A DNA stretch of 55,300 nt from Candidatus Saccharibacteria bacterium RIFCSPHIGHO2_12_FULL_44_22 (GTDB lineage: Bacteria; Patescibacteriota; Saccharimonadia; Saccharimonadales; Saccharimonadaceae): contig MGCS01000001.1 in assembly GCA_001790515.1 (NCBI GenBank), positions 1 to 55,300 of the forward strand, read 5' to 3'. The stretch's first letter is position 1. Each line of letters begins with the position of its first letter. The translations under genes were made by a program, and so were the position numbers. The notes beneath the pieces are model-generated. The model searched no databases, was not told where the DNA came from, and saw only the letters and a program-made list of their open reading frames with translations. Below, in pieces: positions 28,055 to 28,599 of the stretch.

Positions 28055-28083
28055 TTGGAAAAGTCGCCGCTATTTGCTACAAT
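28055..28083 (+). promoter_or_regulatory. Promoter of the repeat and tRNA-Thr(GGU) transcript
   Basis: TTGGAA (28055-28060), a 17-base spacer, TACAAT (28078-28083). Transcription should start near 28090, exactly where the first 69-base repeat begins. The repeats would therefore be the 5' leader of the tRNA precursor. Confidence 0.75.
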
Positions 28084-28090
28084 TGTCCGA

Positions 28091-28228
28091 GGTACGTCGC
28101 GATAGCTCCTGCGTGAAACGTAAGTCATTCGTAGAGCGCATGCATGTACTAAAAGATAAGGTACGTCGCGATAGCTCCTGCGTGAAACGTAAGTCATTCG
28201 TAGAGCGCATGCGTGTACTAAAAGATAA
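28091..28228 (+). repeat. Two 69-bp tandem copies derived from the 5' half of tRNA-Thr(GGU)
   Basis: Units 28091-28159 and 28160-28228 differ at one position. Each contains CGCGATAGCTC and GTAGAGCGCAT, identical to the acceptor/D-arm and D-arm/anticodon-stem parts of the tRNA at 28234, and the tRNA starts in the same register after the second copy. In place of the D-loop AGTTG, each unit has 22 other bases (from CTGCGTG to TCATTC). The 3' half of the tRNA is not repeated. Open frames in this segment are by-products of the repetition. Confidence 0.9.
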
Positions 28229-28233
28229 GGTGT

Positions 28234-28309
28234 GCCGCGATAGCTCAGTTGGTAGAGCGCATCCATGGTAAGGATGAGGTCCTGGGTTCAAATCCCAGTC
28301 GTGGCTCCA
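28234..28309 (+). tRNA. tRNA-Thr (anticodon GGU)
   Basis: 76 bases. Acceptor GCCGCGA/TCGTGGC, D-arm GCTC/GAGC, anticodon stem CATCC/GGATG with loop ATGGTAA (GGT, reads ACC and ACU), T-arm CTGGG-TTCAAAT-CCCAG. The CCA is encoded. Preceded by two copies of its own 5' half on the same transcript. Confidence 0.95.
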
Positions 28310-28392
28310 TTTTTACGTCAGAACACTAGTCATAGTGACAAAATTATGCTAGAATTAATAAGATTGCAATAATAACCGTAAGTGAGTGAGTC

Positions 28393-28599
28393 ATGGCAAA
28401 GAAGAACACAAAGCGCAAGTTAGTCGGTCTCGTCAGTGATCTATCAGGTCACCGTACGTATTACACGACTAAAAATACGCAGAATACGACAGAAAAAATT
28501 AGTCTAAAGAAGTACGACCCAGTGGCGCGTCAGCATGCAACGTACACTGAGACAAAAAAGAGTCTTGGACGTAACGAAGTAAAAGCTCGAAAAGGCTAA
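28393..28599 (+). CDS. rpmG: 50S ribosomal protein L33 (zinc-free form)
   Basis: 68 residues. MAKKNTKRKLVGLVSDLSGH, then RTYYTTKNTQNTTEKISLKK, matches L33 but without the two CxxC zinc pairs. The C-terminal part is slightly longer than usual (TETKKSLGRNEVKARKG). L33 lies near the E site. It follows tRNA-Thr by 83 bases; a bidirectional terminator follows. Confidence 0.88.
   Translation: MAKKNTKRKLVGLVSDLSGHRTYYTTKNTQNTTEKISLKKYDPVARQHATYTETKKSLGRNEVKARKG

Follow-up and report, generated by a model that had tools for sequence, protein, structure and literature searches.

Attachment-site (att) duplications at tRNA genes usually repeat the 3' part of the tRNA and flank an element with an integrase. 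T-box leaders are structured leader RNAs with a tRNA-related logic that bind tRNA, occur in one or more tandem copies, and lie before aminoacylation or amino-acid genes. The ToxI arrays of type III toxin-antitoxin systems are tandem repeats of short structured RNA units. Theta ribozymes are HDV-like RNAs located beside phage tRNAs, and they have been proposed to act in 3'-trailer processing (PMC10879173). The locus reported here was found in a window of 55,300 nucleotides (the whole stretch of DNA that was analysed), which corresponds to contig C1 of a Saccharibacteria-like genome (G000) of 1.23 Mb. It consists of a tRNA-Thr(GGU) gene preceded by two copies of its own 5' half, referred to below as units.

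The units share with att-site duplications the presence of a duplicated tRNA part beside an intact copy. However, they are 5' halves at a distance of 50-230 nt from the tRNA; no element lies in between, and the neighbouring genes are housekeeping ones. An integrative element was rejected because no integrase or element genes lie beside the units: the neighbours in the window are Band_7, DUF402 and L33, and the open reading frames at L203 and L204 are housekeeping-like. A literature search on att sites yielded nothing relevant. The likeness to T-box leaders lies in the structured leader RNA, the relation to tRNA and the one or more tandem copies, whereas the units stand before a tRNA gene and copy its 5' half. 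A T-box riboswitch was also rejected, as the Rfam T-box model was unmatched in the leaders at permissive thresholds, and at every unit locus the downstream gene is the tRNA rather than one for aminoacylation or amino acid supply. As in ToxI arrays, short structured units are repeated in tandem, but there is no toxin gene and the unit sequence tracks the tRNA behind it. No ToxN-like endoribonuclease lies directly downstream, where the window has the tRNA and then L33, and a type III antitoxin array was rejected on this ground. A search of the leaders against Rfam 15 at permissive thresholds gave no convincing match, only the tRNAs themselves and chance-level matches. Among published ideas of an RNA element linked to tRNAs, theta ribozymes come nearest: like the units, they are structured RNAs tied to tRNA precursors with a proposed role in maturation, but they occur in phages and are proposed for the 3' side (PMC10879173), whereas the units are chromosomal, lie on the 5' side and imitate the tRNA. 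No published description of such tRNA leaders was found in a literature search that had most subscription papers outside its reach.

Re-analysis of the window confirmed the original prediction of two tandem 5'-half copies before tRNA-Thr(GGU), and the anatomy of the units is secure. All features of the locus lie on the forward strand. A promoter-like site, TTGGAA-17-TACAAT with TG before the -10 (28055..28083), ends 7 nt before unit 1 (28091..28159), which is composed of a short leader GGTAC, a pseudo-5'-half of tRNA-Thr(GGU) and a tail. Unit 2 (28160..28228) is a tandem copy placed head to tail with unit 1; both are 69 bp long, and their sole difference is A28144/G28213. The intact tRNA-Thr(GGU), the source of the imitated half, occupies 28234..28309 (ARAGORN and Rfam). 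In each unit, tRNA nt 1-13 are represented by GTCGCGATAGCTC, compared with GCCGCGATAGCTC in the tRNA (12/13 identical, one C to T change), and tRNA nt 19 to ~28 are present in register as GTAGAGCGCAT. The D-loop bases AGTTG (nt 14-18) are swapped in both units for 22 bases, CTGCGTGAAACGTAAGTCATTC, at 28109..28130 in unit 1 and 28178..28199 in unit 2. These 22-nt inserts form a predicted hairpin (UGCGU-GAA-ACGUA in unit 1, then an A-rich strand). The probability of the identity between unit and tRNA arising by chance is ~6e-7 at fixed positions alone, and their local score of 29 is higher than that of all 400 shuffles. The 3' half of the tRNA is missing from both units; ARAGORN and Rfam called only the downstream gene at this locus, and the units were rejected as a tRNA gene or pseudogene because they do not form a complete cloverleaf. 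The downstream neighbour rpmG (ribosomal protein L33; 28393..28599) lies outside the element. It is found 3' of tRNA-Thr(GGU) in the window (28234-28599) and in several relatives, with other genes elsewhere. Since the gene after tRNA-Thr(GGU) varies among relatives, the element is associated with the tRNA rather than with L33.

The position of the promoter upstream of the first unit had led to the proposal that the units are part of the tRNA precursor, and the placement of the -10 across loci agrees with this. An extended -10 between unit and tRNA was found at only 2 of 28 unit loci; where a -10 was recognised at such loci, it lay mostly 8-16 nt before the first unit. At unit-less Thr loci, an extended -10 was present within 60 nt of the tRNA in 106 of 130 cases, at a median of 12 nt before the tRNA. 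In addition, the promoter sequences of the unit loci are located directly before the unit-less tRNA-Thr and tRNA-Phe of a relative, G057, indicating that the first unit occupies the usual start of the tRNA. We infer from these sequence comparisons that transcription includes the unit, placing it at the 5' end of the tRNA precursor, and the promoter position would fit a cis-regulatory leader RNA of a general kind.

The units had been described as a feature of tRNA-Thr(GGU), but they are also located before many other tRNAs in the window genome and its relatives. The relatives, which the original prediction proposed to compare for absence or random copies, have units with conserved tRNA-like bases, an outcome in its favour. 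A survey of the sequence preceding tRNA-Thr(GGU) in ~150 genomes from the window's family found window-type units in G199, G163/G187, G073, G130, G140 and G056; G018 has one before this tRNA at a contig edge. A second insert type precedes tRNA-Thr(GGU) in G153, G102, G070 and G098, with three identical units of ~108 bp each in G153. Most other family genomes surveyed have the promoter directly before tRNA-Thr(GGU), i.e., an empty site. When the insert motif GCGTGAAACGYAAN{2,6}CGTAGAG was searched in 84,980 genomes, it was found on 10 contigs, only in Saccharibacteria and always just upstream of a tRNA. Two of these were before tRNA-Thr(GGU) and the remainder before tRNA-Phe(GAA), including L202, where the tRNA is cut off by the contig end. 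At the Phe loci, the half is that of tRNA-Phe itself (GGCTCTTTAGCTC ... GTAGAGCAGAGGCC), and the insert is the same as in the window. The single match among viral contigs, on a contig without tRNAs, was taken as chance.

A narrow exact pattern searched over the order recovered window-like units only. A first covariance model matched the tRNAs themselves besides the units, so a model of the D-arm and insert was built. In 393 genomes of the order, it gave 29 matches in 19 genomes, a catalogue biased to the inserts that this model finds. All of them belong to the window's family and precede a tRNA (Phe, Thr, Lys(TTT), and Leu GAG/CAG/TAG/TAA/CAA), and no insert copies away from tRNAs were found among these matches. 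In every case inspected, the unit was the 5' half of the tRNA behind it. At L215, no tRNA was called nearby by ARAGORN; by eye, the unit adjoins an interrupted tRNA-Thr. This tRNA-Thr (L215 ~1430-1530, G144 contig 30), with the unit upstream, has an interruption following the anticodon, which might be a group I intron. Copies number one to three per tRNA gene, and near-identical head-to-tail copies are present in the window and at L069 (three), L196, L199, L224, and L230. The upstream regions of 39 tRNA genes were read in G000, and leaders were also found before Leu-TAG, Leu-CAG (about three units), Leu-CAA, Ser-TGA, Ser-GCT, Lys-CTT, Lys-TTT, Phe, Arg-TCT, and Gln-CTG. The distribution is patchy, and G029 of the same family has none. 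Most of the genomes are metagenome assemblies; an assembly artefact is unlikely because the units recur in independent assemblies and at orthologous places.

Several insert families were distinguished: the type A hairpin, type B (CTGTCCGAG), and long inserts, the last in the Val, Pro and Gln leaders of G070 and the Ser leaders of G000 and G057. In G070, pseudo-5'-halves before Val(TAC) (L285), Pro(GGG) (L307), and Gln(TTG) (L343) have 70-100 nt inserts in common (GAGAACTGCC..GGCAGTTCGCAAGGC..CTTTC..GTGAAATC). Their consensus hairpin is well supported, and they are possibly a separate structured RNA type. An insert of ~80 nt (AAGCGCAGTGAAATTGTCTG...GAGCGRAACAAAGTGRAGCGATAG) is common to the Ser-TGA leader of G000 (L266) and the Ser-GGA leader of G057, i.e., to different isoacceptors in different genera. 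The tRNA-Gln(CTG) leaders of G000 (L261) and G057 contain a pseudo-half without a D-loop insert, followed by the complement of the anticodon-loop region (TACCAGAAA/TACCAGAAACC). Other repeats were also observed near these genes. L203 and L204, which come from two genomes and have different tRNAs, share a GC-rich, MITE-like palindromic stretch between promoter and unit (GGGGGAGGAG...CGGAGGGGC[AG]A[AG]CCCCTCCT). Another repeat of G000, AGTTGATTACTTTTACGCAGTAGGACTGCG, precedes the promoter in three or more tRNA genes (L249 1616-1636, reverse strand; upstream of Ser-GGA, L260; and Leu-CAG, L267 from ~60). A LOOT RNA (RF03000) was located in a Saccharibacteria genome at L195 963-1080 (reverse strand), ~2.2 kb from a unit-bearing tRNA-Phe.

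Different genera have retained units at orthologous loci, as defined by a common upstream gene: Leu-GAG (G071 and G101), Leu-CAG (G087 and G110), and Leu-TAA (G038 and G112). Orthologous Phe loci with units were found in L195, L200, G070, L203, and G000. Averaged over all loci compared per tRNA, identity was 0.67-0.82 in the insert and 0.78-1.0 in the segment after it, against mostly 0.44-0.55 in the tail and upstream sequence (random 0.48), with 0.68 in the Leu-GAG tail. The insert and the half are thus kept across genera while the flanks are at random identity, indicating that the unit is old and constrained. The tRNA itself has no counterpart of the insert and so cannot maintain it by recombination, and insert conservation is the best evidence for constraint on the unit. 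Our preferred reading, to which we give a probability of roughly 45%, is that each unit is a copy of a structured RNA element, specific to this lineage, that lies in the 5' leaders of many pre-tRNAs and acts on tRNA folding or processing.

The alternative that survives best, although we consider it unlikely, is a tiny mobile or selfish DNA insertion that repeatedly entered tRNA D-loops, where survivors were only those with a duplicated tRNA start, giving rise to pseudo-5'-halves. The occurrence of one insert in different tRNAs and genomes, the several insert families, the patchy presence and the empty sites are all consistent with such an insertion. However, the inspected neighbours are housekeeping genes, the model matches contain no insert away from a tRNA, and the units were vertically retained at orthologous loci in several genera. 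No single mobile sequence accounts for a unit, since the tRNA-derived parts are host-specific. Repeated insertion at this tRNA, one of the explanations offered originally, is therefore still a live rival, weakened by the housekeeping neighbours and by the retention of units across genera.

The match between each unit and its own tRNA was assessed by scoring every leader against every tRNA 5' half and permuting the pairing per genome. Cognate similarity greatly exceeded chance in G000 (z = 7.7) and in G070, a complete genome (z = 8.3; Val, Ser, His, Gln, Phe, Leu, and Pro), and it was present in G057 (z = 3.3; Ser-GGA and Gln-CTG). No such similarity was seen in G029, a member of the window's family (z = -0.6), or in G345 (z = -1.3) and G299 (z = 0.8), which represent other families of the order. 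In 41 units, 5.37 of the 7 acceptor-strand positions agreed with the tRNA of the same host, compared with 3.07 after shuffling (0/20,000 permutations), and the Leu units alone gave 4.61 versus 3.23 (0/20,000 permutations). Cognate identity of the half can come from recombination without function. A further and somewhat less probable alternative is that the units are non-functional partial tandem duplications of tRNA gene starts, which are decaying and are homogenised by recombination. Near-identical head-to-tail copies, cognate tracking, patchiness and a weak folding signal all speak for such duplications. The insert is the difficulty, as it is foreign to the tRNA yet common to Thr, Phe, Leu, Lys, and Ser units, and it is conserved where the flanks are random.

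The insert common to the units before these five kinds of tRNA consists of a short hairpin, UGCGU-GAA-ACGCA, with an A-rich strand after it. In 22 variants of the hairpin, 97.7% of cells were paired and two pairs were changed on both sides, with covariation barely above shuffles (32/500). The very different inserts of other units are also predicted hairpins, often with a GAA loop. Folding of the units was mildly better than that of shuffles (mean z -1.0). An outer helix closing the unit looked good in Thr units (GUACG/CGUAC, AGAGUAC/GUACUCU, and GUCGUGC/GCGCGAC), and it was rejected as not significant (p = 0.05 overall, 0.15 within isoacceptors). A second, distal pairing in the insert, CUGCG/CGUAG, was rejected because compensatory change was absent. 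Folding of the window precursor, proposed originally as a check, predicted that the units pair with each other and that the tRNA stays folded (P = 0.98).

These folds bear on another, improbable alternative, a strand-exchange switch in which an antisense stretch of the leader invades the nascent D-arm and the leader's acceptor copy takes the 3' acceptor strand, producing exclusive OFF and ON folds. Long stretches complementary to the intact D-arm, G18G19 included, are present in leaders L086, L069, L250, L216, and L224; for these leaders, the joint fold with the tRNA is 6-12 kcal/mol more stable than the separate folds, and P(acceptor stem) is ~0. An antisense cognate signal was also detected in G070 (p = 0.001) and G000 (p = 0.04). 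However, the interaction energy between leader and tRNA is not cognate-specific (p = 0.41 and 0.09), type A units mostly have no long antisense, and the predicted fold of the window tRNA is undisturbed. Strand exchange was rejected as a general mechanism, as there was no significant cognate effect on folding energy genome-wide. Finally, the original suggestion of a decoy for RNase P or tRNA-binding proteins draws on the mimicry of the cognate tRNA in its acceptor 5' strand and D-arm. It is very improbable, because every unit lacks the acceptor 3' strand, the T arm, the anticodon and CCA, and the D-loop is destroyed.

Since strand exchange and the outer helix were not significant and the window tRNA stays folded, the structured leader element is stated here in its weaker form, as a constrained leader element with a shared hairpin. 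Transcription would place the unit at the 5' end of the precursor, where it would fold on its own. The shared hairpin might be read by a common factor or serve as a common folding module, and the unit would thereby adjust how the tRNA behind it folds or is processed at its 5' end. The cognate match might be upheld by recombination between direct repeats, which would also yield tandem copies, and/or by selection; selection, if acting, would favour competing with or shielding the true 5' half. A bolder proposal, possible but held only tentatively, is a genome-wide class of riboregulator on tRNA genes, in which the tRNA's own 5' half is used with its D-loop turned into a shared sensor or recognition hairpin, and one factor or signal would set the maturation of many tRNAs.

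Saccharibacteria are tiny symbionts with very small genomes. To our knowledge, control of tRNA supply by a structured leader RNA has not been described in bacteria. An element that copies the front half of the tRNA following it, is common to isoacceptors and has been kept for a long time suggests either a hitherto unrecognised step in tRNA expression or an insertion of an unknown kind that targets tRNAs. Either would be new, and both are testable in cultured Saccharibacteria. The pseudo-5'-half leaders look like an undescribed RNA element that may control the making of tRNAs in one family of Saccharibacteria.
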